Of a stretch of 32,593 nucleotides of DNA, positions 1,372 through 15,028 are shown piece after piece. The notes beneath the pieces were generated by a model. It ran no database searches and had not been told where the DNA came from. It saw only the letters and a program-made list of their open reading frames with translations. The DNA is taken from positions 1-32,593 of the forward strand of contig DWYT01000072.1 in NCBI GenBank assembly GCA_019118545.1, read 5' to 3'. The position numbers and the translations under genes are program-made. This stretch comes from Candidatus Mediterraneibacter merdavium. GTDB lineage: Bacteria; Bacillota; Clostridia; Lachnospirales; Lachnospiraceae. Each line of letters opens with the position of its first letter. Within the stretch, counting starts at the first letter, position 1.

Positions 1372-1453
1372 TCAGCACTCTTTACAAAAAGCGAATATTT
1401 CAGCCTTTGGATGCTTATATTTTTAACAGACGAATTTTTAAAGAGGGATCGTG

Positions 1454-2689
1454 ATGAAACAAGTTCAGTCATTTGTTCTGAGTATTGTCCTGCTTTTGTC
1501 ATGTCTGTATATCCATGTAGGTGTTATGGCAGAAGAGGAGCAGGGCCAGTCCGCAGAGCAGGAGCAATCATCGGAGGAGCAGAATCAGTCCGCGGTACAG
1601 GAGCAGCCGGCAATCGATGTCACCGCTCCGTCGGTGATCCTTATGGAGGCCTCCACGGGCACGGTTATTTATGAGAAAGACGCGGACACGGCGCGGCCGC
1701 CAGCGAGTGTGACGAAGGTGATGACCATGCTGCTCATATTTGACGCATTGGAGGAGGGCAGTATCAGTCTGGAGGATGAGGTGACGACTTCCGAATATGC
1801 GGCATCTATGGGAGGCTCTCAGGTATTTCTTGAACCGGGGGAGACGCAGACCGTTGATACGATGCTCAAATGTATCGCCGTGGCCAGCGCAAACGACGCC
1901 TGTGTAGCCATGTCAGAGTACATATGTGGCAGTGAGGAGGAGTTTGTCCGCAGGATGAACGAGAGAGCAAAGGGACTTGGCATGGAGAATACGAACTTTG
2001 TCAACTGCAATGGACTGGACGCGGAAGGGCATGTGACAAGCGCGCGGGATATTGCCCTTATGTCCCGGGAGCTTATATCGAAATACCCTCAGGTACACGA
2101 TTATTCTATGATCTGGATGGAAAATATTACGCATACCACGAAAAAAGGAAGCTCAGAGTTTGGCCTGACAAATACAAATAAACTGGTGCGGCAGTACGAG
2201 TATGCGACAGGACTTAAGACGGGGTCCACAGGCGATGCGAAATTTTGCGTCTCCGCCACAGGCGAGAAGAACGGAATTGAGCTGATAGCTGTCGTTATGG
2301 CAGCGGAAAATTCAAAGGAGCGGTTTGCGGACGCCGTGAAGCTTTTGAATTATGGATTCGGAAGATGCCAGCTTTATTCGGATGAGGAGACAGAAGGGAT
2401 CAATCCCGCAAAGGTAGAAGGCGGTGTGGAAGAAACTGTCGGCGTCCGGCGTAAAAGCGCGTTTTCCTATCTGGATACGTCGGGAGCGGATTTGAACAGC
2501 ATTGAGAAAAAGATCGAGATGGAGAAAACGGTCAAAGCGCCGCTGAAAAAGGGGGATATAGTCGGGCATATTATTTATAGTCTGGATGGAAATGAGATTG
2601 GGAGGAGCGAGCTGATAGCAGAAAAAAGCGTGAAAAAGGCAGGTTTTTTTGATTTCTTTAAAAAGGCTTTGGGGGAAGCCGCTCTGTAA
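1454..2689 (+). CDS. D-alanyl-D-alanine carboxypeptidase (peptidase S11, PBP5/DacF-like)
   Basis: Removes the terminal D-Ala from peptidoglycan pentapeptides outside the membrane. A signal peptide (residues 1-26, ending VMA) is followed by a Glu/Gln/Ser-rich linker. All three penicillin-binding motifs are present: SVTK at 85-88 (nucleophile Ser85), SAN at 145-147 and KTG at 255-257. The C-terminus is the usual PBP5 beta domain plus a short amphipathic tail (GFFDFFKKAL) of the kind that anchors these enzymes to the membrane. ATG at 1454 is chosen over the GTG at 1451 because the GAGGG site is better spaced. The gene is monocistronic, closed by the hairpin at 2697. A second S11 enzyme lies 2.5 kb downstream. 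DacF-type enzymes act in sporulation, but this cannot be decided here. Confidence 0.93.
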   Translation: MKQVQSFVLSIVLLLSCLYIHVGVMAEEEQGQSAEQEQSSEEQNQSAVQEQPAIDVTAPSVILMEASTGTVIYEKDADTARPPASVTKVMTMLLIFDALEEGSISLEDEVTTSEYAASMGGSQVFLEPGETQTVDTMLKCIAVASANDACVAMSEYICGSEEEFVRRMNERAKGLGMENTNFVNCNGLDAEGHVTSARDIALMSRELISKYPQVHDYSMIWMENITHTTKKGSSEFGLTNTNKLVRQYEYATGLKTGSTGDAKFCVSATGEKNGIELIAVVMAAENSKERFADAVKLLNYGFGRCQLYSDEETEGINPAKVEGGVEETVGVRRKSAFSYLDTSGADLNSIEKKIEMEKTVKAPLKKGDIVGHIIYSLDGNEIGRSELIAEKSVKKAGFFDFFKKALGEAAL

Positions 2690-2696
2690 CCACAGT

Positions 2697-2726
2697 GAAA
2701 AAGGGATGGGAATCCATTCCTTTTTC
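2697..2726 (+). terminator. Intrinsic terminator after the carboxypeptidase gene
   Basis: GAAAAAGGGATGG pairs with CCATTCCTTTTTC across a 4-base loop, with one G-U pair in 13. The T-run is part of the descending stem. Confidence 0.8.
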
Positions 2727-2738
2727 GCGTATCGGGAC

Positions 2739-2767
2739 TGTTTTTCTTTTTGGTCGTATTATATAAT
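2739..2767 (+). promoter_or_regulatory. Possible promoter of the metallophosphoesterase gene
   Basis: A perfect TATAAT at 2762-2767 lies 17 bases after a poor -35 (TGTTTT, 2739-2744). It follows the terminator and precedes the start codon by about 70 bases. Confidence 0.35.
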
Positions 2768-2834
2768 GAGATCAGAATATCAAAAAAGCGTCTTTAGGCA
2801 CTCCGGCGCACGAAACGAAAAGGAGAGACTTTCA

Positions 2835-3752
2835 ATGAATCCATTTATCATTATTGGTTTGCTTATTGTTCTGGCTATTATCTTAGCTGTGATTTTTGAA
2901 ATACACAGGGAGCTGCATCATTTTCAGGTCACGAGTTACAGTGTCCGCTCAAAGAAGCTGAGAGGGATTTCCAGAGATATGAAGCTCCTGTTCCTGAGCG
3001 ACCTGCACAACTGGACATACGGACAGGGGAATGAGACGCTGCTTGAGAGTATCCGCTCTGAGGAACCAGACCTGATTCTTGTCGGCGGGGATATGCTGGT
3101 GGGAAAAGAAAAGGCTGTTTTTGATAATGCCCTTGATTTTCTCAGGGCATTGCCTGAGATCTGTCCGGTCATCTGCGCCAACGGCAATCATGAACAGAGG
3201 GTAAAAGAAGATACAAAGACATACGGGGATGTATACGCTGGCTATAAGAAGGCGTTAAAGGACAGTGGAATCCATGTTCTGGAAAATGAGAGCATCAGGG
3301 TGGAGCTAGGATCAAGGGATCTGGTCATATACGGTCTGGAGCTTCCCTCTGCTTCTTATAAAAAGTTTAAAAAGTCCCCTCTTACTCCGAGGGAAATATC
3401 AGGATATTTCGGATTGACGGAAGAAGAAAGCGGTAAATACAGAGCCGGAGCCGGGAAAGAAGAAAAGAGCTATAAGATCCTGCTGGCGCACAATCCTGCG
3501 TATATGGAGGCTTATCTGGACTGGGGCGCGGACATGGTACTTTCCGGCCATCTGCACGGCGGACTTATACGAGTGCCCGGCCTTGGCGGGATCGTGACTC
3601 CGCAGGGATTTCTCTTTCCCAAATATTCCGGGGAGATAACGCAGGAGGGAGAGCGGACTGTGATCGTAAGCAGAGGATTGGGGACACATACGCTTAATAT
3701 CCGTCTCTTTAATCCGCCGGAACTTATCTCGATCCAGCTTGGAGGGGAGTAA
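2835..3752 (+). CDS. Membrane-anchored calcineurin-like metallophosphoesterase
   Basis: A 305-residue protein with one N-terminal membrane helix (residues 4-21) and a calcineurin-type phosphoesterase domain. The metal-binding motifs occur in order: SDLHN (Asp56, His58), GGDM (Asp86), NGNHE (Asn118, His119) and GHLHGG (His239, His241). Such YkuE/YaeI-like proteins are dinuclear metal hydrolases; some act on lipid head groups, but the substrate of this one is not evident. The frame is open from 2649, but the ATG at 2835 has AAAGGAGAG just upstream and places the membrane helix at the N-terminus, and the longer form would cross the terminator. The gene stands alone between a terminator and the scpA promoter. 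Confidence 0.88.
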   Translation: MNPFIIIGLLIVLAIILAVIFEIHRELHHFQVTSYSVRSKKLRGISRDMKLLFLSDLHNWTYGQGNETLLESIRSEEPDLILVGGDMLVGKEKAVFDNALDFLRALPEICPVICANGNHEQRVKEDTKTYGDVYAGYKKALKDSGIHVLENESIRVELGSRDLVIYGLELPSASYKKFKKSPLTPREISGYFGLTEEESGKYRAGAGKEEKSYKILLAHNPAYMEAYLDWGADMVLSGHLHGGLIRVPGLGGIVTPQGFLFPKYSGEITQEGERTVIVSRGLGTHTLNIRLFNPPELISIQLGGE

Positions 3753-3759
3753 AAAATCA

Positions 3760-3788
3760 TTGTAAAAATCCCGGCGTTCCCGTATAAT
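3760..3788 (+). promoter_or_regulatory. Probable sigma-A promoter of scpA-scpB
   Basis: TTGTAA (3760-3765), a 17-base spacer and a perfect TATAAT (3783-3788), about 42 bases before the scpA start codon. Confidence 0.55.
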
Positions 3789-3830
3789 ATACTATTGGTA
3801 TATTATGAAATGAACACTTAGGGAGTCAGT

Positions 3831-4589
3831 ATGGGAATACCGGTAAAGCTGGAAGTATTCGAAGGTCCTCTGGATCTTCTTCTTCACCTGATTGATAAAA
3901 ATAAAATAGACATCTATGATATCCCCATCGTTGAGATCACGAATCAGTACATGGAGTATATCCGCAATATGCAGAGGGAAGACTTGAATATCATGAGCGA
4001 GTTCCTTGTTATGGCGGCGACTCTGCTGGATATCAAGTGCCGGATGCTGCTTCCAAAGGAAGTGACTGAGGATGGGGAAGAGGAAGATCCAAGGCAGGAG
4101 CTTGTGGAACAGCTCCTTCAATACAAGATGTACAAGTACATGGCCTATGAATTAAAGGACCGGCAGACAGACGCTGATTGCGTCCTCTATAAGCGGCCTA
4201 CGATTCCCGAGGAAGTTCAGGGGTATGTGGAGCCGGTAGATCTGGATCTTCTTTTGGGGGATCTTACGCTGTCCCGTCTCAACGCCATTTTTCAGGATGT
4301 GATGAAGCGGCAGACGGACAAGATCGACCCGGTGAGGAGTAAGTTCGGAAGAATCGAGAAAGAGGAAGTGTCGCTTTCGGATAAATTTACATACATCCGC
4401 GGATATATGAAGGCGAGAAAGCGGTTCAGCTTCCGCCAGCTTCTTGAGGAGCAGCACAGCAAGATGCACGTTGTCGTGGCATTTCTGGCAATCCTTGAGA
4501 TGATGAAGCTGGGAGAAATACGGGTAGAGCAGGAGGATACCTGCGGTGAGATCATGATTGAAAGGACTGGAGATACAGATGGAGATTGA
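3831..4589 (+). CDS. scpA: Segregation and condensation protein A (kleisin)
   Basis: The kleisin subunit of the Smc-ScpAB condensin, which organises and segregates the chromosome. The N-terminus shows the ScpA signature (VKLEVFEGPLDLLLHLID, residues 5-22, then IDIYDIPI), and the family motif continues through LVMAATLLDIKCRMLLP. The C-terminal winged helix that binds the Smc head is visible near residues 185-235 (RFSFRQLLEE, VVAFLAILEMMKLGEI). The length of 252 residues is normal. It overlaps scpB by about 11 bases, implying translational coupling, and has its own promoter at 3760. Confidence 0.95.
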   Translation: MGIPVKLEVFEGPLDLLLHLIDKNKIDIYDIPIVEITNQYMEYIRNMQREDLNIMSEFLVMAATLLDIKCRMLLPKEVTEDGEEEDPRQELVEQLLQYKMYKYMAYELKDRQTDADCVLYKRPTIPEEVQGYVEPVDLDLLLGDLTLSRLNAIFQDVMKRQTDKIDPVRSKFGRIEKEEVSLSDKFTYIRGYMKARKRFSFRQLLEEQHSKMHVVVAFLAILEMMKLGEIRVEQEDTCGEIMIERTGDTDGD

Positions 4590-5148
4590 GAAGCTGCAAA
4601 GCGCGATCGAGGCGATTCTTTTTACAATGGGCGATTCTGTTGAGCTGGATAAGATTGCCGCTGCGATCGGACATGACGCGGAGACGACGAAGAAGCTCAT
4701 CCGCTCTATGATGGACCGGTATGAAGAGAACGACCGTGGGATTAAGCTTATAGAGCTTGACAATGCTTACCAGCTCTGCACAAAGAAAGAAATGTACGAG
4801 TATCTGATCCGCGTGGCAAAGCAGCCGAAGCGGTATGTGCTCACGGACGTTCTTTTGGAGACGCTGTCCATCATCGCCTATAAGCAGCCGGTGACAAAGC
4901 TGGAGATCGAGAAGATTCGCGGCGTGAAGACCGATCACGCGGTAAATAAGCTGGTAGAATACGGACTTGTGGAGGAAGCAGGACGCATGGACGCGCCCGG
5001 CAGGCCATTGCTTTTCGGCACTACAGAGGAGTTCCTGCGCCGGTTCAGCGTCCATTCGCTTGATGAACTTCCAGTGCTTGATCAGGAACAGCTCGAGCAT
5101 TTTAAAGAAGAGGCAGAGGACGAGGCTCAGCTAAAGCTGGACATTTGA
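4579..5148 (+). CDS. scpB: Segregation and condensation protein B
   Basis: The dimeric winged-helix partner of ScpA in the Smc complex. The family hallmarks are the start IEKLQSAIEAILF, the motif ETLSIIAYKQPVTKLEIEKIRGV near residues 95-117, and the ending of the second winged helix GLVEEAGRMDAPGRPLLFGTTEEFLRRF. The ATG at 4579 is preferred over the in-frame ATG at 4558 because GGAG lies six bases upstream and ScpB proteins normally begin just before this helix. It gives 189 residues. The start lies inside scpA, so the two are coupled. The carboxypeptidase gene 104 bases downstream reads the same way with no terminator between. Confidence 0.94.
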   Translation: MEIEKLQSAIEAILFTMGDSVELDKIAAAIGHDAETTKKLIRSMMDRYEENDRGIKLIELDNAYQLCTKKEMYEYLIRVAKQPKRYVLTDVLLETLSIIAYKQPVTKLEIEKIRGVKTDHAVNKLVEYGLVEEAGRMDAPGRPLLFGTTEEFLRRFSVHSLDELPVLDQEQLEHFKEEAEDEAQLKLDI

Positions 5149-5252
5149 TAAATGGGTATCCGGCAGAAGGGGGTCAAGGAAGACGTGAGATTATATTTTC
5201 TTGGAAAAGCGCATACATTGTAGATGAGACAGTACCGTCAGAGGTGTCCTCT

Positions 5253-6524
5253 ATGAGAAACAAGATAAAACTGAAGAAATGGAAAAAGACGGCGGTTGTC
5301 CTGCTTTTCGCAATCGTCTTTACGCTGTTTTCTTTCTCTGCACACTGCCCCTTTTTTCAGGTATTGGCAGAGGAGACGGAAACTGCGCAGAGCGGCGGGA
5401 TAAAGCCGTCCGAGTTATACGCCCAGTCAGCGGTCCTTATGGATGCGGAATCAGGGCGTATTTTATTTGCGAAAAATGGACAGGAAGCGAGGCCCATGGC
5501 GAGTACGACAAAGATCATGACCTGCATCCTGACGCTGGAGAAAGGAAATCTGTCCGACCGCGTGGCTGTGAGCGGCGAAGCGTCCGCGCAGCCGGCGGTA
5601 AAGCTTGGGGTGCGTTCAGGGCAGGAGTTTTACCTGCGGGATCTTCTGTATTCCCTGATGCTGGAATCCCACAATGACTCCGCTGTGGCGATCGCGGAGC
5701 ACATCGGCGGAAGCGTGGAAGGCTTCGCGGATATGATGAACGCAAAGGCAGAGGAGTTAGGCTGTGAAGATACATATTTTATCACGCCGAACGGTCTGGA
5801 CGCGCAGGATGATGAGGGCGTCCATCACACGACGGCGGGCGATCTGGCGCGGATCATGAAATACTGCATCATGGATTCTGGAAAAAAAGAAGAATTCCTT
5901 GAGATCACGAGGACGGAGAGTTATTCCTTTTCCGACTGTTCGGGAAATGGAAACTATTCCTGTGTCAATCACAATTCTTTTCTGAAAATGATGGAAGGGG
6001 CGCTTTCGGGAAAGACGGGATTTACGGCGGACGCGGGTTACTGCTACGTGGGGGCACTCGAAGACGGCGGCAGAACCTTTATCGTTGCGCTTCTCGCCTG
6101 CGGCTGGCCGAATAATAAAAGCTATAAGTGGGCGGATACTAGAAAACTGATGACATATGGCATTGAAAATTATTTTTACCGGGAGATCACCCCAAAGCTT
6201 ACGGAGGATACGATAAAAGCAGCGGGCGGTTTTGGCGGCGGCTTCCCGCAGAAGGAGCCTGTAGAGCTTAAACTTCGCACCGGGGGCGGAGTGCGGAGGT
6301 TACTGCTGAAGCAATCAGAGGAAATCACCATGGACACAGATGTGCCGTCCGTCATATCAGCGCCTGTAAAAGCGGGAGCGCGGCTGGGAAGTATTACTTA
6401 CGCGGTAGACGGACGGATTGTGGCATATTATCCTGTCTTTGCGGCGGAAAACATCGGGGAGCGGAGTTTAATGACGTGTGTTTCATATGTGGCGGGGACA
6501 TTTATGTTTCAATCACAAGATTAA
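5253..6524 (+). CDS. D-alanyl-D-alanine carboxypeptidase (peptidase S11, second copy)
   Basis: A second extracytoplasmic D,D-carboxypeptidase of 423 residues. An N-terminal hydrophobic segment (residues 13-30) serves as signal peptide or anchor. Catalytic motifs are STTK at 84-87, SHN at 139-141 and KTG at 254-256, followed by a PBP5-type beta domain. Unlike the first copy it ends without an obvious amphipathic anchor helix. The frame is open from 5145, but the ATG at 5253 has GAGGTG six bases upstream and places the signal sequence correctly. It follows scpB closely without a terminator and may share the scpAB transcript; scpAB-dac neighbourhoods are common in clostridia. The GGGFGGGF stretch near residue 330 is a low-complexity loop. 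Confidence 0.92.
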   Translation: MRNKIKLKKWKKTAVVLLFAIVFTLFSFSAHCPFFQVLAEETETAQSGGIKPSELYAQSAVLMDAESGRILFAKNGQEARPMASTTKIMTCILTLEKGNLSDRVAVSGEASAQPAVKLGVRSGQEFYLRDLLYSLMLESHNDSAVAIAEHIGGSVEGFADMMNAKAEELGCEDTYFITPNGLDAQDDEGVHHTTAGDLARIMKYCIMDSGKKEEFLEITRTESYSFSDCSGNGNYSCVNHNSFLKMMEGALSGKTGFTADAGYCYVGALEDGGRTFIVALLACGWPNNKSYKWADTRKLMTYGIENYFYREITPKLTEDTIKAAGGFGGGFPQKEPVELKLRTGGGVRRLLLKQSEEITMDTDVPSVISAPVKAGARLGSITYAVDGRIVAYYPVFAAENIGERSLMTCVSYVAGTFMFQSQD

Positions 6525-6528
6525 AATA

Positions 6529-6618
6529 AATCAATAAAAATGATTAAAATTACCACTGGTTATCAAAAGCGGCCTGTGTTAGTATAGGTGAGTATAAAAT
6601 AAAGCAATCAAATTGATT
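6529..6618 (+). promoter_or_regulatory. leuA leader with two AATCA/TGATT palindromes and a weak promoter
   Basis: AATCA (6529-6533) and TGATT (6541-6545) form an inverted repeat with a 7-base spacer. AATCAAATTGATT (6606-6618) is a perfect 13-base palindrome built from the same half-sites, ending 22 bases before the leuA start codon. Between them lies a possible promoter, TTATCA (6560-6565), 17 bases, TATAGG (6583-6588). The pair could be a binding site for a regulator, possibly the AraC domain of LeuA itself; that is inference. No T-box or leucine leader peptide was seen. Confidence 0.35.
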
Positions 6619-6640
6619 AATTATAAGGAGATGTACAGCT

Positions 6641-8629
6641 ATGGAAAACTGGAAGAAATACGAAAAGACTTATTTTATGCCGCCGGAGCCTTGTTATGAC
6701 TGGGTGAAGAAGGACGCGGTCGAGAAAGCGCCGATCTGGTGCAGCGTGGACCTGCGCGACGGCAATCAGGCGCTCATCGAGCCGATGAGCTTAGATGAAA
6801 AACTGGAGTTCTTCCAGCTTCTTGTGGACGTGGGATTTAAGGTGATTGAGGTCGGCTTCCCGGCGGCGTCAGAGACAGAGTATCAGTTTTTAAGGACGCT
6901 CATCGAGCAGAACATGATCCCGGAGGATGTGACGATCCAAGTGCTGACACAGGCGAGAGAGCATATCATCAAGAGGACGTTCGAGGCGGTAAAGGGCGCC
7001 CCGCATGCAATTATACATGTATACAATTCTACATCGGTGGCACAGAGAGAGCAGGTGTTCCGCAAGAATAAAGAGGAGATCAAGCAGATCGCCATTGACG
7101 GGGCAAAGCTGTTGAAAAGTCTGGCAAAGGAAACGAGCGGAAACTTTACATTCCAGTACAGTCCGGAGAGCTTTCAGGGAACAGAGGTAGATTATGCCCT
7201 TGAAGTTTGTAACGCTGTTCTGGATATCTGGAAACCGACCGCGAATAATAAGGCGATCATCAATCTTCCGACAACGGTGGAAAATGCGATGCCGCATGTA
7301 TTTGCAAGTCAGGTGGAATATTTTAATAAGCATCTGCTCCACAGAGAGAATGTGATCCTTTCCCTGCATCCGCACAATGACCGCGGTTCCGGCATCAGCG
7401 ACGCGGAGCTTGGCATCCTCGCTGGCGCGGACAGGATTGAAGGAACTCTTTTTGGAAACGGCGAGCGCACCGGCAACGTGGATATCGTCACACTGGCCAT
7501 GAATATGTTCTCTCAGGGAGTTGACCCGGGACTGGACTTCTCAAATATGAGCGACATCTGCGAGGTGTATGAGCGCGTGACCCGTATGCAGGTGTCTCCC
7601 CGCCAGCCTTACGCGGGAGAGCTTGTGTTCACTGCGTTTTCAGGCTCCCATCAGGACGCTATCGCAAAGGGAATGGCATGGAGAGAGGAGAAAAACTGCG
7701 ACAAGTGGAGTGTTCCTTATCTTCCCATCGATCCGCAGGATGTGGGCAGGAGATACGATTCCGATGTCATCCGCATCAACAGCCAGTCCGGCAAGGGCGG
7801 TGTAAATTACATATTGAAGCAGAGCTTCGGCATCAGCCTGCCGGAGAAGATGAAAGAGGAAGTGGGATATCTTGTCAAAGATGTTTCCGACAAGGCGCAC
7901 AAAGAGCTTACGCCGGACTGGGTATACCATATCTTTGAGGACAATTACATCAATGCAAAATCAGTGTTTACAGTGGATGAGTGCCACTTTAAGCAGGAGG
8001 ACGGCATCATTGCAGAGGCGACCATCCATCACGGCGGCAGCAACCGCAAGATCATGGGCGTTGGAAACGGGCGTCTGGATGCGGTGAGCAATGCGATCAA
8101 GCACTACTTTGACGTCAGCTATGAACTGTCATTCTACGAAGAGCACTCCCTGACAAAAGGCTCCTCATCAAGGGCGGTCGCTTATGTAGGTGTGGTCTGC
8201 AATAAGAAACGCTACTGGGGCGTGGGCATCGACGCCGACATCATCAAGGCGTCCATCGAGGCATTGGTCGTCGCCGTGAACAAGATCAAGGAGATCGCCG
8301 AGTCACAGGCAGGTAAGGATGAACGGCTTTTAGAGATCACCAACTACATCTATGCGAATTATAAGGACGTGACTCTGGATTCCCTGTCGGAGAAGTTCTT
8401 CCTCTCCAAACCGTATTTGTCAAAATACATCAAGGAGAAGTCGGGACTGACGTTCGGAGATATTTTAAAGAAAATCCGCATGAAAAAAGCAAGAGCCATG
8501 CTCAAAGGCAGCAGCGCGACGGTAGAAAGCATCGCGGACTCGGTCGGATATCAGAACGTCGAGCACTTTAACAGAGTGTTCAAGAAAATGTATAACATGA
8601 CGCCCGTGCAGTACCGGAACCGGAAGTAA
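6641..8629 (+). CDS. leuA: 2-isopropylmalate synthase fused to an AraC-type DNA-binding domain
   Basis: Condenses acetyl-CoA with 2-oxoisovalerate, the first committed step of leucine synthesis. Residues 1 to about 400 are the LeuA type 2 (yeast/actinobacterial) catalytic barrel, with DLRDGNQAL at 37-45 and the metal-binding HPHND at 243-247. Residues of about 425-555 match the position of the LeuA allosteric (leucine-binding) domain. Residues 560-662 form a complete AraC double helix-turn-helix: [21 protein letters not shown], a [11 protein letters not shown] linker helix and [20 protein letters not shown] ending TPVQYRNR. Ordinary type 2 LeuA stops near 560-600 residues. The junction (GKDERLLEI) is in one open frame with no stop or frame change. 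RBS is AAGGAG ten bases before the ATG. No other leu gene is adjacent. Confidence 0.93.
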
Positions 8630-8722
8630 ATCTGTAATCATGTTAAAGACCGGACTTTGTATCGGGCAGCTGGTTTTGCCCGGGTAATCCTGATACAAAG
8701 TCCGGTACATGGTTACAGATTT
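8628..8722 (+). terminator. 95-bp nested hairpin overlapping the leuA stop codon, probable terminator
   Basis: The outer arms AAATCTGTAATCATGT (8628-8643) and ACATGGTTACAGATTT (8707-8722) pair at 15 of 16 positions plus one wobble. The inner arms CCGGACTTTGTATC (8650-8663) and GATACAAAGTCCGG (8692-8705) pair perfectly, and GGGCA/TGCCC (8664-8668, 8677-8681) closes a third stem. The left arm starts inside the TAA stop codon. A short T-run follows (8725-8731). It is far larger than a normal terminator and may instead be a remnant of a palindromic mobile element. Confidence 0.6.
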
Positions 8723-8797
8723 TAAGTTTTTGTATGGTGTGGTAAGATAGTTTCAGGCAGGAATTGATGTTCGATATGGATGGAAAGAGATTTACTT

Positions 8798-9391
8798 ATG
8801 GAGAAAAAGGCGGAAATTATTACAGATAAAAACGGAAAGAAAATCGTCAGGATTCCTAAAATCCTGTTCAAAGGAAAACGGCAGATTCCATGGGATGATG
8901 TGAAAAATTATCTGGAACAGTATGTGGGGATGGCTTGTGAGATTGAAGATACAGGCGATATTATCTATATAGGAAATGATCTTCCGGATGAATACACAGG
9001 TTCAAAATACACGTACTCATTAAAAGGTGCAAATGCGAAAGCAAAGGCGAATGCTGCACAGGGGATACCGGAACTGCTGAAAATCGCGACAGGAAAATAT
9101 TTCCGTGAAAATTCGGGTGAGAAACATCGAAAAGACGCGGCATATGGCTGGTATCGGTATGATTCCAGATTCGCACTGCCTGTATATAATGAACAGGACA
9201 AAGAGGAGCATTATAATGTCTATCATGCCTCTATGCTGATAAGGCATAACAAAGACGGAAACTATTATCTGTATGATATTTTTGACATAAAAAAGAAACG
9301 AGCAACCCTTTCCAATCCTAAGATTTTACTTGGCAAAAAACCCATTTCTCTTACCCATTATTTTAATATTCGGGTAAAAGTTTGTCAATAG
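8798..9391 (+). CDS. Orphan protein resembling large polyvalent protein-associated domain 3 (LPD3)
   Basis: A 197-residue soluble protein with no signal or membrane segment. From memory of the family, residues of about 24-170 resemble the LPD3 domain found inside very large multi-domain proteins of phages, plasmids and conjugative elements: ILFKGKRQIPWDDVKNYLEQ, then YIGNDLPDEYTGSKYT, KGANAKAKANAAQGIPELL, KDAAYGWYRYDSRFALPVY and HASMLIRHNKDGNYYLYDIFDIKK. Here it stands alone. Its biochemical function is not known. The gene is visibly richer in A and T than its neighbours and lies between two large palindromic structures, which suggests horizontal acquisition or decay of a larger element. The ATG at 8798 has GGAAAGAG upstream; an in-frame ATG at 8780 would add six residues but lacks a site. 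Confidence 0.6.
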   Translation: MEKKAEIITDKNGKKIVRIPKILFKGKRQIPWDDVKNYLEQYVGMACEIEDTGDIIYIGNDLPDEYTGSKYTYSLKGANAKAKANAAQGIPELLKIATGKYFRENSGEKHRKDAAYGWYRYDSRFALPVYNEQDKEEHYNVYHASMLIRHNKDGNYYLYDIFDIKKKRATLSNPKILLGKKPISLTHYFNIRVKVCQ

Positions 9392-9799: not shown

Positions 9800-11239
9800 A
9801 TGAGCTACAATGCAACAGAAAACTCAGCAAGCAGACGAATTGCCACATTGCTTGATGAGGGCAGCTTTGTTGAAATCGGCGGCGCTGTTACTGCCAGAAG
9901 TACGGATTTCAACCTGCAGGAAAAAGAGACTCCGTCCGACGGTGTTATCACCGGCTACGGAGTGATCGACGGCAATCTTGTCTATGTGTACAGTCAGGAT
10001 GCGTCGGTTCTTAATGGGGCAATCGGAGAGATGCACGCGAAGAAGATTGCGAACATCTATGACATGGCGATGAAGATGGGCGCGCCGGTGGTCGGTCTGA
10101 TCGACTGCGCGGGATTAAGGCTTCAGGAAGCGACAGACGCTCTTGAGGCATTCGGAAGCCTGTACTACAAGCAGAGCATGGCTTCTGGAGTGGTTCCGCA
10201 GATCGCGGCGATCTTCGGCATGTGCGGCGGAGGACTTGCAGTAGTTCCCGGCCTAGCTGACTTTACATTTATGGAGGAGAAGGACGGGAAACTGTTCGTG
10301 AATTCTCCGAATGCTCTGGAGGGCAATGAGATTTCCAAATGCGACACTTCAAGCGCGCAGTATCAGAGCGCGACGGCAGGACTTGTGGACGGCATCGGTA
10401 CAGAGGCGGATATCCTCGGACAGATCCGTTCTCTCGTATGTATGATCCCCGCCAACTATGAGGATGATCTTTCTTATGAGGAATGTACGGACGATCTGAA
10501 CCGTGTATGCGCGGATATCGCGAACGCGGCTGCGGATACATCTATCGTTCTTTCCCAGATCGCGGACGACCAGATCTTTTTTGAGATGAAGAAAGACTAC
10601 GCGAAAGAGATGGTGACTGGATTTATCCGTCTCAACGGCATGACAGTGGGCGCTGTGGCGAACCGCACGAAAGTATACGGGGCGGACGGCGCTGAGGAGG
10701 CGGCTTTTGACTGCGCTCTGACAGTGGACGGATGCAAGAAGGCCATTGATTTTGTGAATTTCTGCGACGCTTTCTCAATTCCGGTACTCACGCTTACGAA
10801 CGTGGCGGGATTCGCGGCTACGGTCGAGTCAGAGAAAAATATGGCGAGAGCAGTTGCGAGAATGACTTATACATTTGCAAACGCCACAGTTCCGAAGGTG
10901 AATGTGATTGTAGGAAAGGCTTACGGAAGCGCTTATATCGCGATGAACAGCAAGTCCGTCGGAGCGGACATGGTTTATGCGTGGCCGGAGGCAGAGATCG
11001 GTATGATGGAAGCGGATCTCGCGGCAAAGATCATGTATGCGGACGCTGACGCTGACACGCTGAAAGAGAAAGCGGCAGAGTACAAAGAACTGCAGTCCAA
11101 CCCGATGTCAGCGGCGAGAAGAGGATACGTGGATACGATCATCGAACCTGCTGATACAAGAAAATATGTGATCGGCGCTTTTGAGATGCTGTTCACAAAG
11201 AGAGAGGACCGGCCGGACAAGAAACACGGCACGGTTTAG
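9800..11239 (+). CDS. Carboxyltransferase, acyl-CoA type (12S/MmdA-like)
   Basis: The crotonase-fold carboxyltransferase that moves a carboxyl group between an acyl-CoA (typically methylmalonyl-CoA or malonyl-CoA) and biotin. Two repeated domains are visible: the N-half with GLIDCAGLRLQE and FGMCGGGLAVVPGLADF, and the C-half with PVLTLTNVAGF and GKAYGSAYIAMNSKSVGADMVYAWPEAEIGMM, both typical of MmdA, PccB and the transcarboxylase 12S subunit. At 479 residues it is about 30 shorter at the N-terminus than classical MmdA and lacks the usual RERI leader helix. The start has GGAGG 8-12 bases upstream. It heads the operon with OadG-, biotin-carrier-, OadB- and OadA-type genes. The acyl-CoA substrate cannot be fixed; methylmalonyl-CoA is the default inference. 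Confidence 0.85.
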   Translation: MSYNATENSASRRIATLLDEGSFVEIGGAVTARSTDFNLQEKETPSDGVITGYGVIDGNLVYVYSQDASVLNGAIGEMHAKKIANIYDMAMKMGAPVVGLIDCAGLRLQEATDALEAFGSLYYKQSMASGVVPQIAAIFGMCGGGLAVVPGLADFTFMEEKDGKLFVNSPNALEGNEISKCDTSSAQYQSATAGLVDGIGTEADILGQIRSLVCMIPANYEDDLSYEECTDDLNRVCADIANAAADTSIVLSQIADDQIFFEMKKDYAKEMVTGFIRLNGMTVGAVANRTKVYGADGAEEAAFDCALTVDGCKKAIDFVNFCDAFSIPVLTLTNVAGFAATVESEKNMARAVARMTYTFANATVPKVNVIVGKAYGSAYIAMNSKSVGADMVYAWPEAEIGMMEADLAAKIMYADADADTLKEKAAEYKELQSNPMSAARRGYVDTIIEPADTRKYVIGAFEMLFTKREDRPDKKHGTV

Positions 11240-11253
11240 TGAGGTGAGGCGAA

Positions 11254-12027
11254 GTGAAGAAAAAAATCAGTTTATTAGGACTTGTCCTCATCCTTGTCCT
11301 TGGTTTCACAGGGTGCAGCAAGTCCGACACAACAGAATATGACCAGACAGCGCTGGAACAGTATGCGGATTTTATCGTCCAGAACTTCAGCGCGATGTCT
11401 GAAGCCGACTTCGAGGATTTTACGGAAATGTCGGAGCTGGAACTGGATCTGACGCTGCTTAATACCGGTGTACCAGTTTCGGGAGAGAATTTCCTGACAA
11501 TGATCGACGCGTGGAAGGCGGGACAGGATGAATGTGGTACATTTGTCAGTCTTGGAGAGTACACGCTGGAGACGGCGAATGACGGCGCGACACTCAGCGC
11601 GGAAGCAGATTTCGAGGACAAGGACGGCACGATCGAATTTGCTTTTGACGAAGGCATGAACATGGAGAGCATCACAGTATCCGCCCACTACTCAACAGGC
11701 GAGATTCTTGAGAAGGCGGCTCTGAACACGATCCTTGGTATGGGAACTGTGTTCGTGGTACTGATCTTTATCTCCTTTATCATCTCGCTGTTTAAGCTGA
11801 TTCCTGTCATTGAGAAGAAGTTTAAGAAGAGTCCCAAGACAGAGGCGGCAGCAGCGCCCGCTCCGGCCCCGGCAGCTCCCATTCCGGCTCCCGCGGCGGC
11901 GGATGAGACAGACGACGGCGAGCTCGCGGCGGTGATCGCGGCGGCGGTGGCAGCGGCGGAGGGCACATCCACAGACGGATTTATCGTGCGCTCGATCAAG
12001 AGAAGAAAATCGAATAAATGGAATTGA
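11254..12027 (+). CDS. OadG/MmdD-family decarboxylase subunit with lipoprotein-like N-terminal domain
   Basis: Gamma/delta-type membrane anchor that would join the carboxyltransferase and biotin carrier to the sodium-pump beta subunit. It is 257 residues, far longer than OadG (about 80-120). Residues 1-21 are a signal peptide ending in a lipobox-like GFTGC (Cys21). Residues 22 to about 155 are an acidic extracytoplasmic domain not recognised here. One membrane helix follows (about 158-185), then an Ala/Pro-rich linker and the family C-terminus DGELAAVIAAAVAAAEG and FIVRSIKRRKSNKW. The GTG start at 11254 is supported by GAGGTGAGG upstream, 14 bases after the previous stop codon. Confidence 0.8.
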   Translation: MKKKISLLGLVLILVLGFTGCSKSDTTEYDQTALEQYADFIVQNFSAMSEADFEDFTEMSELELDLTLLNTGVPVSGENFLTMIDAWKAGQDECGTFVSLGEYTLETANDGATLSAEADFEDKDGTIEFAFDEGMNMESITVSAHYSTGEILEKAALNTILGMGTVFVVLIFISFIISLFKLIPVIEKKFKKSPKTEAAAAPAPAPAAPIPAPAAADETDDGELAAVIAAAVAAAEGTSTDGFIVRSIKRRKSNKWN

Positions 12028-12043
12028 TTAGGAGGATCATGAA

Positions 12044-12418
12044 ATGAAAAATTATACAATTACAGTAAACGGAAATGTATATGACGTGACAGTAGAGGAG
12101 AAGGGCGCGGGCGCAGCACCGGCGGCTCCGGCACCAAAAGCGGCTCCGGCGGCTCCGAAAGCAGCTCCGGCACCGGCAGCGGCTCCGAAGGCTGCGGGAG
12201 CAGGTAAGATTCAGGTGAAGGCAGGCGCGGCAGGAAAGGTATTCCAGATCCCGACAAGTGTCGGACAGAGTGTTCAGGCAGGAGATGCGGTCGTGATCAT
12301 CGAGGCCATGAAGATGGAGATTCCGGTTGTTGCTCCGGAGGCGGGAACAATCGCCAGCATTGACGTGGCAGTAGGCGATGCCGTAGAGGCAGGGGCAGTG
12401 CTTGCCACATTAAACTAG
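12044..12418 (+). CDS. Biotin carboxyl carrier protein (1.3S/MmdC-like)
   Basis: Carries the carboxyl group as carboxybiotin between the carboxyltransferases and the beta subunit. It is 124 residues: a short N-terminal beta segment (NYTITVNGNVYDVTVEE), an Ala/Pro/Lys-rich flexible linker (residues 21-54) and a biotinyl domain with the EAMKMEI motif, so Lys90 is the biotinylated residue. It is preceded by TTAGGAGG and sits 16 bases after the OadG-type gene. Only one carrier gene lies in the operon, so both carboxyltransferases probably share it. A biotin ligase would be needed from elsewhere. Confidence 0.92.
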   Translation: MKNYTITVNGNVYDVTVEEKGAGAAPAAPAPKAAPAAPKAAPAPAAAPKAAGAGKIQVKAGAAGKVFQIPTSVGQSVQAGDAVVIIEAMKMEIPVVAPEAGTIASIDVAVGDAVEAGAVLATLN

Positions 12419-12442
12419 TCACCAACCTAGGAGGTCTTACAA

Positions 12443-13594
12443 ATGGAATATATTTCAAATACGCTGGGGAACCTCGTAGAGCAGACCGCATTCATGAATC
12501 TCACATGGGGAAACCTGATCATGATCGGTGTTGCCTGCGTATTCCTCTTTCTGGCGATAAGACACGGCTTTGAGCCGCTTTTGCTCGTCCCCATCGCCTT
12601 CGGTATGCTTCTTGTCAATATCTATCCGGATATTATGATCCATCCCGAAGACGCGTCCAACGGGACAGGCGGACTTTTGTATTATTTCTATGTGCTTGAC
12701 GAGTGGTCCATCCTTCCGTCGCTGATCTTCCTCGGTGTGGGCGCGATGACAGATTTCGGACCGCTGATCGCCAACCCGAAGAGCTTCCTTCTCGGAGCGG
12801 CGGCACAGTTTGGTATCTTCGCCGCTTATTTGGGAGCGATGTGGATGGGATTCTCAGACAAGGCTGCGGCAGCGATCTCCATCATCGGAGGGGCAGACGG
12901 CCCGACATCTATCTTCCTCGCAGGTAAGCTGCAGCAGACGGCGATCTTAGGACCGATCGCGGTGGCGGCGTACTCGTATATGTCGCTTGTGCCGATCATC
13001 CAGCCGCCGATCATGAAGCTGCTCACAACGGAGAAAGAGCGTAAGATCAAGATGGAGCAGCTCCGTCCGGTATCCAAGTTAGAGAGGATTCTCTTCCCGA
13101 TCATCGTTACCATTGTTGTCTGCGTGATCCTTCCGACGACGGCTCCGCTTGTCGGTATGCTCATGCTCGGTAACCTCTTCAAAGAGTCCGGCGTGGTAAG
13201 ACAGCTTACAGAGACCGCTTCCAATGCCCTGATGTATATCGTCGTTATCCTGCTGGGAACATCCGTAGGCGCGACCACAAGCGCGGAAGCATTCATCAAC
13301 TGGGATACGATCAAGATCGTGATCCTCGGACTGATCGCTTTCGCATTTGGTACGGCAGCGGGCGTTCTCTTTGGAAAGCTCATGTGCTGGGCAACAAAGG
13401 GCAAGGTAAATCCGCTGATCGGTTCTGCGGGCGTATCCGCCGTGCCGATGGCGGCGCGTGTATCCCAGAAGGTGGGAGCGGAAGCTGACCCGACCAACTT
13501 CCTGCTCATGCACGCCATGGGACCGAACGTGGCAGGCGTTATCGGTACAGCCGTAGCAGCGGGAACATTCATGGCGATCTTTGGCGTTAAGTAA
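12443..13594 (+). CDS. oadB: Sodium-translocating decarboxylase beta subunit (OadB/MmdB/GcdB family)
   Basis: A polytopic membrane protein of 383 residues that decarboxylates carboxybiotin and couples this to sodium export. Around nine to eleven hydrophobic segments are visible. The family signature GGADGPTSIF is present near residue 150, with the conserved Asp that takes part in sodium translocation, as are the second-half motifs GTSVGATTSAEAF and GVSAVPMAARVSQ. OadB, MmdB and GcdB are too similar to separate by eye; the symbol is used for the family. AGGAGG lies 10-15 bases upstream. In the operon it follows the biotin carrier by 24 bases. Confidence 0.92.
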   Translation: MEYISNTLGNLVEQTAFMNLTWGNLIMIGVACVFLFLAIRHGFEPLLLVPIAFGMLLVNIYPDIMIHPEDASNGTGGLLYYFYVLDEWSILPSLIFLGVGAMTDFGPLIANPKSFLLGAAAQFGIFAAYLGAMWMGFSDKAAAAISIIGGADGPTSIFLAGKLQQTAILGPIAVAAYSYMSLVPIIQPPIMKLLTTEKERKIKMEQLRPVSKLERILFPIIVTIVVCVILPTTAPLVGMLMLGNLFKESGVVRQLTETASNALMYIVVILLGTSVGATTSAEAFINWDTIKIVILGLIAFAFGTAAGVLFGKLMCWATKGKVNPLIGSAGVSAVPMAARVSQKVGAEADPTNFLLMHAMGPNVAGVIGTAVAAGTFMAIFGVK

Positions 13595-13612
13595 TAAATG
13601 GAGGACAGATAA

Positions 13613-15028
13613 ATGGCAGAAATTGAAAAAAAACCGGTTAAAATAGTAGAGACCATCCTGCGTGACGCGCATCAGTCCCTGATCGCCACCAGAATGACGA
13701 CAGACCAGATGATGCCCATCGTTGAGAAGATGGACAAAGTAGGCTACCATGCAGTAGAGTGCTGGGGCGGAGCTACCTTCGACGCTTCCTTACGTTTCCT
13801 CAAAGAAGATCCGTGGGAGAGACTGAGAAAATTCCGCGACGGCTTTAAGAACACAAAACTGCAGATGCTCTTCCGCGGACAGAATATCCTCGGATACCGT
13901 CCGTACGCTGACGATGTGGTAGAGTATTTTGTACAGAAATCTGTTGCAAACGGAATCGATATCATCCGTATCTTCGACTGTCTGAACGATATGCGTAACC
14001 TTCAGACAGCGGTTACGGCGGCAAACAAAGAAAAAGCTCACGCGCAGGTGGCAATGTCCTACACACTGGGCGACGCGTATACCATGGAGTACTGGGTTGA
14101 CCTCGCGAAGAAGATCGAGGACATGGGCGCAAACTCTATCTGCGTAAAAGATATGGCAGGACTTCTCTGCCCGTATCAGGCAACAGAGCTTGTGACAGCG
14201 TTAAAAGAAGCTGTCAGCATCCCGATTGAAATGCATACACATTATACTTCTGGTGTGGCTGCGATGACTTATATGAAATCCGTTGAGGCAGGCGCTGACA
14301 TCATCGATACAGCAATGTCACCGTTCGCTCTCGGTACTTCCCAGCCGGCGACAGAGGTTATGGTCGAGACTTTCAAGGGAACACCGTATGACACAGGACT
14401 GGATCAGGGACTTCTCTCCGAGATCGCGGACTACTTCCGTCCGATCCGTGACGAGGCTCTTGAGAGCGGCCTGTTAAATCCGAAGAACTTAGGCGTGAAT
14501 ATCAAGACGCTTCTGTATCAGGTTCCGGGCGGTATGCTCTCCAACCTGACGTCCCAGCTCAAAGAGCAAGGAGCGGAAGATAAGTTCTATGATGTGCTTG
14601 AGGAAGTTCCGCGTGTGCGCAAGGATCTCGGCGAGCCGCCGCTTGTTACACCGTCCTCACAGATCGTTGGAACACAGGCAGTATTCAACGTGCTGATGGG
14701 TGAGCGCTATAAGATGGCGACAAAGGAGACAAAGGATATCCTTGCCGGAAGATACGGCGCGACAGTAAAACCAGTGAACGCAGAGCTTCAGAAGAAGATC
14801 CTCGGAGAAGACGCAGACATCATCACATGCCGTCCGGCGGATCTCATCCCCAACGAGCTGGATACACTCCGCAAAGAATGCGAGCAGTGGATGCAGCAGG
14901 ATGAAGATGTGCTGACATACGCACTCTTCCCGCAGGTAGCGGTTGACTTCTTTAAGTACAGACAGGCGCAGCAGACAAAGGTTGACGCCACTGTGGCTGA
15001 TACAGAGAACGGGGCATATCCGGTATAA
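13613..15028 (+). CDS. oadA: Oxaloacetate decarboxylase alpha / transcarboxylase 5S-type carboxyltransferase
   Basis: A barrel-type carboxyltransferase that moves carboxyl between oxaloacetate and biotin. Motifs of the pyruvate carboxylase/OadA/5S group are present: ETILRDAHQSL (metal-binding Asp18), MLFRGQN, CVKDMAGLL (Lys179, probably carbamylated) and EMHTHYTSG (metal-binding His208 and His210), followed by the conserved C-terminal PYC/OADA domain. At 471 residues it lacks the C-terminal biotin domain of enterobacterial OadA, as in the 5S subunit; the carrier gene upstream would supply biotin. It is the last gene of the operon, 19 bases after oadB, and is followed by a strong terminator. 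Confidence 0.92.
   Translation: MAEIEKKPVKIVETILRDAHQSLIATRMTTDQMMPIVEKMDKVGYHAVECWGGATFDASLRFLKEDPWERLRKFRDGFKNTKLQMLFRGQNILGYRPYADDVVEYFVQKSVANGIDIIRIFDCLNDMRNLQTAVTAANKEKAHAQVAMSYTLGDAYTMEYWVDLAKKIEDMGANSICVKDMAGLLCPYQATELVTALKEAVSIPIEMHTHYTSGVAAMTYMKSVEAGADIIDTAMSPFALGTSQPATEVMVETFKGTPYDTGLDQGLLSEIADYFRPIRDEALESGLLNPKNLGVNIKTLLYQVPGGMLSNLTSQLKEQGAEDKFYDVLEEVPRVRKDLGEPPLVTPSSQIVGTQAVFNVLMGERYKMATKETKDILAGRYGATVKPVNAELQKKILGEDADIITCRPADLIPNELDTLRKECEQWMQQDEDVLTYALFPQVAVDFFKYRQAQQTKVDATVADTENGAYPV

Follow-up and report, generated by a model that had tools for sequence, protein, structure and literature searches.

We identified a gene of Candidatus Mediterraneibacter merdavium whose product, here called LeuA-HTH, is predicted to join a complete type 2 LeuA (2-isopropylmalate synthase), including its leucine-binding domain, to a complete AraC-type double helix-turn-helix (HTH). 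Judged from its sequence, the protein is quite probably both the cell's working 2-isopropylmalate synthase and a transcription factor, that is, a trigger enzyme by fusion. The initial annotation had proposed this role, and the enzyme and the DNA-binding domain both appear intact in one chain.

Within the window (the whole 32,593-nucleotide stretch of DNA that was analysed) the leuA-HTH gene occupies positions 6641..8629 of the + strand, which also carries the domain, promoter and operator features of this gene described below. It begins with ATG, encodes 662 amino acids in a single open frame without an internal stop, and follows a ribosome-binding site (AAGGAG, read from the sequence at 6625..6630). 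Pfam places the catalytic TIM-barrel domain (HMGL-like) at residues 31–307 (6731..7561), the post-catalytic IPMS_D2 domain at residues 327–393 (7619..7819) and the LeuA_dimer allosteric domain at residues 422–549 (7904..8287). A variable linker (residues 550–560; 8288..8320) leads to the AraC-type double HTH (residues 561–662; 8321..8626), which is delimited by Pfam, conservation and seven predicted helices. The HTH_18 match spans residues 582–661 and the HTH_AraC match residues 624–660. All five Pfam domains exceed their curated cut-offs, including the leucine-binding LeuA_dimer (PF08502; 87 bits against a cut-off of 24.9) and the AraC-type HTH (PF12833; 73.6 bits against 33.6). The boundaries agree with those read initially, when a complete type 2 LeuA including the leucine-binding region was assigned to residues 1 to about 555 and a complete double HTH in the same frame to residues 560–662; Pfam ends the former at about residue 549, and the latter was found at 561–661. 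The NCBIfam model PRK03739 (2-isopropylmalate synthase) scores 805.8 bits against a cut-off of 455, and TIGR00970 (leuA_yeast) falls slightly below its cut-off (676.5 against 697.4). Since the curated model names the protein plain 2-isopropylmalate synthase, the regulatory half is easily overlooked.

The LeuA part resembles the M. tuberculosis IPMS structures 1sr9 and 3fig (E about 9e-154), and the HTH part resembles the solved response regulators 6swi and 3lsg (YesN). An AlphaFold model made from a shallow alignment of 27 rows (pLDDT 76.7, pTM 0.53) was used to place helices. In this model the last helix of the leucine domain (534–547) is followed by the short linker and then by helices at 561–572, 579–586, 590–601, 605–623, 628–634, 640–651 and 655–660, with ten-residue mean pLDDT values of 77–90 across residues 561–660. 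The predicted fold of this region is the seven-helix AraC double HTH. The predicted recognition helices are residues 590–601 (8408..8443) and 640–651 (8558..8593).

Both halves of the protein are conserved. R39, D40, E176, H243, H245 and H337 do not vary among the 131 distinct fused proteins, and neither does Y360, which aligns with Y410 of the M. tuberculosis enzyme (MtIPMS). We take these residues to be the counterparts of the MtIPMS metal and catalytic residues R80, D81, E218, H285, H287, H379 and Y410. Among 52 fused representatives, every pair of which is less than 85% identical, the LeuA_dimer motifs GNGRL (475–479) and 501–510 are largely retained. The HTH columns that never vary in this set include Y592, S594 and I597 in the first recognition helix, G602, G636 and Y637, E641, H642, F643, R645 and F647 in the second recognition helix, and P655. 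Mean column entropy is 1.12 and 1.15 in the two HTH halves, 1.16 in LeuA_dimer, 0.57 in the catalytic domain and 2.43 in the linker. Median dN/dS among 27 near relatives is 0.010 for the HTH compared with 0.021 for the catalytic domain, 0.028 for LeuA_dimer and 0.117 for the linker, values that are rough because dS is near saturation (about 1.4–1.5) outside the linker. The linker thus has the highest entropy and the highest dN/dS of the segments compared. The constraint on the HTH is no weaker than that on the enzyme part, and its entropy and dN/dS led us to reject a vestigial, decaying or passive domain.

Among the matches listed, the genome that contains the window has one LeuA match at E≤1e-60, which is the fused gene, and it also has homologues of leuC, leuB and ilvB. 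This argues that the fused LeuA still has to make leucine. By sequence the catalytic part is intact, and the enzyme is apparently active.

Operators, promoter geometry and targets

The region upstream of fused genes contains a conserved 39-bp element with the majority consensus TAAAATAAATCAATnAAAnTGATTAAATTTATCACT, followed by unconserved bases. In the window this element, operator 1, was located with a position matrix at 6522..6560. It comprises boxes TAAAA, ATCAA, TGATTAA and CCACT/TCACT, which repeat at about 23 bp in the footprint matrix, and it ends just upstream of the -35 region. The site scores 38.6 bits in its own genome (E 2.8e-9) and belongs to the training set. Of the fused genes, 130 have 100 nt or more of upstream sequence, and 116 of these score at least 12; the best shuffled sequence scores -13.3. 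As the first matrix was trained on such sites, a second was built from 50 relatives alone, each at least 88% identical. With this second matrix 67 of the 80 other fused upstream regions exceeded every shuffled and coding control. Two of 30 short open reading frames did so as well, L096, which is cut by a contig end, and L179, a split gene whose HTH frame is intact.

The presence of the operator was compared with that of the HTH on a tree of LeuA residues 1–549 with 82 rows, 81 of which have enough upstream DNA; three loci with split genes (L086, L179 and L182) were counted as HTH-bearing. Using the first matrix and, as threshold, the highest shuffled score from the scan of leuC, leuB and ilvB loci described below (-8.8), the operator is present in 49 of 54 HTH-bearing rows and in none of the 27 HTH-less rows. 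Six independent contrasts agree at the median pairing (two-sided p 0.031, range 0.031–0.125), which places this test at the edge of significance. The operator falls below the null ceiling in five HTH-bearing rows (L140, L150, L164, L173 and L175).

The promoter has a fixed geometry. An extended -10 box, TGTTAGTAT, lies at 6577..6585 with its hexamer at 6580–6585. For 37 representatives whose operator is strong we located the best extended -10 box (TGnTAnnnT, by a scoring that favours TG before the hexamer). Its distance from the operator is identical in 32 of them and differs by at most 1 nt in 36. The bases between operator and -10 box are hardly conserved; only their number is kept. This fixed distance indicates that the operator stops at the -35 region, always on the same side of the helix. 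Activators that contact RNA polymerase usually bind in this position. The -35 box itself is not conserved; the mean best match to TTGACA is 3.18 of 6 positions compared with 2.51 in shuffled sequence (n=33), so that it is poor rather than absent. In keeping with this, a simple promoter scan of the window misses the leuA promoter.

A second operator is found in the predicted early transcribed region at 6595..6621 (16.1 bits, E 0.031), 73 bp after operator 1. We scanned 105 fused loci whose operator is strong and that lack a T-box within 300 nt, with a threshold at 99% of 525 shuffles. A second copy of the first 27 bp of the element occurs between promoter and start codon in 84 of these, comprising 79 of the 84 loci whose protein is at least 78% identical to that of the window and 5 of the 21 more distant loci. 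The distance between the operators is 73–74 bp in 76 of the 84 carriers, a count inflated by shared ancestry among near relatives, and 63 bp in two. At 10.5 bp per turn, these spacings amount to roughly seven and six turns of the helix. A protein bound at operator 2 would hinder transcription.

We searched 26 genomes with fused genes using a profile of 44 leuA operators. The best genome-wide match is the leuA promoter in 25 of these and the second-best in the remaining one (G250), although many of these leuA sites are in the training set and the leuA matches are therefore partly circular. The search scored 150 candidates per genome, and weak sites may be missed or mis-ranked. Four matches other than leuA have E<0.01, and three of them precede branched-chain genes, whose identities were checked: leuB-ilvD in G372 (E 7e-6), leuC in G250 (E 3.3e-4) and ilvB in G235 (E 0.007, about 465 bp upstream). 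The fourth, near metE-like and LysR genes in G027 (E 0.007), looks like a chance match. Of the weaker matches inspected, 1 of 12 precedes a branched-chain gene, ilvB. In the 1500 nt before 82 leuC, leuB and ilvB loci of 30 fused genomes, six matches exceed the shuffled maximum (leuC 3 of 25, leuB 1 of 30, ilvB 2 of 27), three of which are the sites from the genome search. No strong site was found in 26 control genomes (best E 0.0016), whose LeuA is apparently unfused in the matches listed, for some by E-value alone, and no branched-chain gene was recognised by eye at five control loci that were fetched, beside which the control genomes have one further match with E<0.01. The few sites beyond leuA suggest that leuA itself is the main target, with occasional recruitment of other leucine genes. 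A broad regulon is rejected on the same grounds.

The palindromes that the initial annotation had noticed just upstream of the gene are real, being parts of the two conserved elements at 6522–6560 and 6595–6621. Its guess that they form the gene's own operator gains support from the co-occurrence of operator and HTH and from the fixed promoter geometry, and also from the matches before leuC, leuB-ilvD and ilvB, which lie outside the training set. On these sequence patterns LeuA-HTH very probably binds its own promoter.

Leucine T-boxes and the proposed mechanism

A T-box leader controls transcription by RNA attenuation in response to uncharged tRNA. Scanned with Rfam, 9 of 37 fused loci have the T-box (RF00230) before leuA, as do 14 of 20 Lachnospiraceae loci with short open reading frames; two of the six short-ORF loci without a T-box are split genes, L179 and L182. 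On the tree, the raw counts are 11 of 54 HTH-bearing rows compared with 20 of 27 HTH-less rows, and operator and T-box occur together in 10 of the 54. Where an operator is recognised at fused genes that carry a T-box, it precedes the T-box and sits at the promoter. Among 30 loci with the T-box pattern, 24 have a leucine codon (CTC, CTG or CTA) at what is presumably the specifier position, four gave no match and two have only other matches. The window contains no Rfam match at gathering score and no T-box pattern upstream of leuA.

We propose the following mechanism. The LeuA dimer would carry two double HTHs, which would bind the four boxes (TTAAAA, ATCAA, TGATTAA and TCACT), spaced by roughly one turn of the helix. 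In the absence of leucine, LeuA-HTH would contact RNA polymerase and activate its own promoter. Activation at low leucine is suggested because the operator abuts the -35 region at a fixed helical spacing, the -35 box is poor and the -10 box is extended. Leucine in the LeuA_dimer domain would re-orient the HTHs, and at high leucine the protein might release the DNA or, in the sub-clade of the window, also occupy operator 2 and repress. One leucine site could thereby serve both inhibition of the enzyme and shut-off of the gene, and in some lineages leuC, leuB-ilvD or ilvB may come under the same control. That leucine is the signal we regard as likely, and that the protein is an activator as fairly likely.

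A pure repressor could act at the same sites, binding when leucine is plentiful at a promoter that needs no activation. In the sub-clade of the window operator 2 comes shortly after the predicted start, a position typical of a repressor, and end-product feedback is how such pathways are usually controlled. However, this operator is found in few of the loci below 78% identity (5 of 21), whereas the upstream site and its distance to the -10 box are general. The upstream site has the position of an activator, and there is no conserved -35 box. Pure repression is thus a credible but unlikely reading.

The HTH might also be blind to leucine, either keeping the level of LeuA constant or sensing 2-ketoisovalerate or acetyl-CoA. 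Trigger enzymes are described as working as transcription factors when their substrate is absent (PMC8249747), which would fit such a reading. Against this, the HTH directly follows the leucine-binding domain, whose motifs are kept, and the T-boxes at 20 of 27 HTH-less leuA rows have, where a specifier is recognised, a leucine codon. Leucine is thus plausibly the older signal at leuA, and we consider autoregulation blind to it improbable.

It is very unlikely that the operator belongs to another regulator, the HTH on LeuA being structural or acting elsewhere. The five fused rows in which the operator is not recognised would agree with such an arrangement. However, the operator is lacking at every HTH-less leuA row, several of which are nested among fused ones, it accompanies the fused gene in three genomes outside the family too, and the control genomes have no strong site.

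Distribution and history of the fusion

The domain pair was sought in other genomes and is not restricted to the source assembly. The first set of 61 genomes consisted of the genome of the window, 36 others of its genus and 24 from other families of the order. The full-length, stop-free fusion is found in 35 of the 37 genomes of the genus, including the genome of the window, and the other two contain fragments (residues 1–159 in G011; residues 615–662 at a contig end in G023). No full-length fusion match was obtained in the 24 genomes from other families. Across 396 Lachnospiraceae genomes a LeuA match at E≤1e-60 occurs in 366 and the fusion in at least 91 (77 genus codes; counted by hand from matches reaching residue 659 or further). 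A search of 293 Clostridia genomes at E≤1e-150 identified the fusion in 11, eight of them Lachnospiraceae, including the genome of the window, and three from two other families. These three loci (L316 in G518, L317 in G633 and L318 in G635) all have the operator, and they may reflect transfer or mis-binned contigs. Two of these genomes, G518 and G633, have a second, unfused LeuA alongside the fused gene. In total, 198 loci yielded 162 distinct proteins, of which 131 are fused.

Cultured carriers include [Ruminococcus] torques ATCC 27756, R. faecis JCM 15917, Faecalicatena orotica NLAE-zl-C242, Hespellia stercorisuis DSM 15480, Muricomes intestini DSM 29489 and Schaedlerella arabinosiphila DSM 106076. 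Cultured strains have the same fusion, and 35 of the genus's 37 genomes share the stop-free junction, which rules out a misjoin or frameshift artefact. An assembly error, contamination or decayed domain has practically no probability left, since the HTH also has a dN/dS of 0.010, although three assemblies do have a frameshift or stop in the linker. These are L086 (a Mediterraneibacter metagenome-assembled genome, MAG), L179 and L182 (Lachnospiraceae), in each of which an intact AraC HTH follows in another frame. They may represent a natural division into two proteins or sequencing error. The operator is strong at L179 and L086 and weaker at L182.

Two further observations concern the boundaries of the family. 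The locus L096 is on a contig from a MAG labelled Desulfitobacterium; its LeuA, cut by the contig end, is 74% identical to that of the window and is accompanied by operator and T-box pattern, and the contig is probably mis-binned Lachnospiraceae. Six genus codes (g44, g70, g96, g43, g171 and g180) each contain one genome with a fused LeuA and one with a far weaker LeuA match (E about 1e-177 to 1e-188, compared with 0 to 1e-301 for the fused, among the matches listed), as if two types of LeuA replace each other.

The tree requires nine changes for the full-length fusion, seven of which are forced by well supported branches, or eight changes if the split genes are counted as HTH-bearing. Because HTH and operator look homologous throughout, one gain of the HTH followed by several losses is the preferred history; a single gain is suggested by parsimony, which is not proof. 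With phylogenetically independent contrasts there is no support for the fusion having strictly replaced the T-box. Since the T-box contrast is not significant given ancestry, a handover from RNA to protein control of leuA is put forward as a plausible history.

Taken as a whole, we would give an even chance to the following account. One ancient event in the Lachnospiraceae would have made the leucine enzyme a sensor and activator of leucine genes. The operator would have been added before the leucine T-box, the T-box would have been lost in most lineages, and leuC, leuB-ilvD and ilvB would have been taken over later in some. One allosteric site would then set both activity and expression, with a protein replacing an RNA switch.

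Related systems and genomic neighbourhood

Trigger enzymes are already known, and five are named for E. coli: BirA, NadR, PepA, PutA and PyrH, of which PutA is a proline dehydrogenase and repressor (PMC8249747). PutA, BirA and NadR resemble LeuA-HTH in having enzyme and DNA-binding function in one chain and in regulating genes of their own pathway, and PutA further in acting mainly at its own promoter region. Unlike these proteins, LeuA-HTH is a committed biosynthetic enzyme with a separate allosteric site for the product and an AraC-type HTH, and it is probably an activator. In BirA and NadR the response is to active-site ligands. A fusion of an enzyme fold to an HTH in which catalysis has been lost is also known: BzdR joins an HTH to a shikimate-kinase-like domain whose enzyme activity is lost (PMC3602430). 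In contrast, LeuA-HTH retains every catalytic residue tested, and it is the only close LeuA in the window's genome among the matches listed.

AraC and YesN-type regulators share the seven-helix double HTH with LeuA-HTH. However, their sensor is a sugar-binding cupin or a receiver domain, whereas that of LeuA-HTH is an apparently active enzyme. The site from which AraC itself activates is an operator next to the -35 region, as here, and the araI boxes repeat at 21 bp compared with about 23 bp at the LeuA-HTH operator. The M. tuberculosis IPMS is likewise a type 2 LeuA with a LeuA_dimer domain and its catalytic residues align, but it has no DNA-binding domain. The leucine T-box leader (RF00230) precedes leuA in most HTH-less relatives examined and is absent from the window.

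The initial annotation knew of no characterised example, and no LeuA-AraC fusion was found in open-licence PMC full text among the matches listed. What we take to be new is the combination, within a large bacterial family, of a committed biosynthetic enzyme, a separate product-sensing domain, an AraC-type HTH and an operator. As a rule, different molecules carry out feedback inhibition and the feedback control of gene expression; in LeuA-HTH both may share one protein and one leucine site, across a large family of gut bacteria. The system comes with an operator already in place, with lineages that have naturally gained or lost the HTH, and with intermediates that have both a protein and an RNA switch. 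If the proposal is true, one could test directly how a protein replaces an RNA regulator, and the protein would be a compact genetically encoded leucine sensor.

No family of neighbouring genes recurs in more than 6 of 42 loci. A conserved neighbourhood was therefore rejected as functional context, and the gene with its promoter is the conserved unit. In the window two D-alanyl-D-alanine carboxypeptidase genes (1451–2689 and 5145–6524; region 1451–6524) are located just upstream of leuA, with a phosphoesterase gene, scpA and scpB between them; similar genes are found upstream in 6 of 42 loci. Just past the leuA stop is a perfect 15-bp inverted repeat, ACCGGACTTTGTATC (8649–8663 and 8692–8706), with no T run directly after it, which is a possible terminator or processing signal. 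The 203-amino-acid open reading frame directly after leuA (8780–9391) has no Pfam match at E≤0.001. It is followed at 9800–15028 by genes for a carboxyltransferase, gamma and beta subunits and a PYC_OADA domain protein, which are probably sodium-pump decarboxylase genes.
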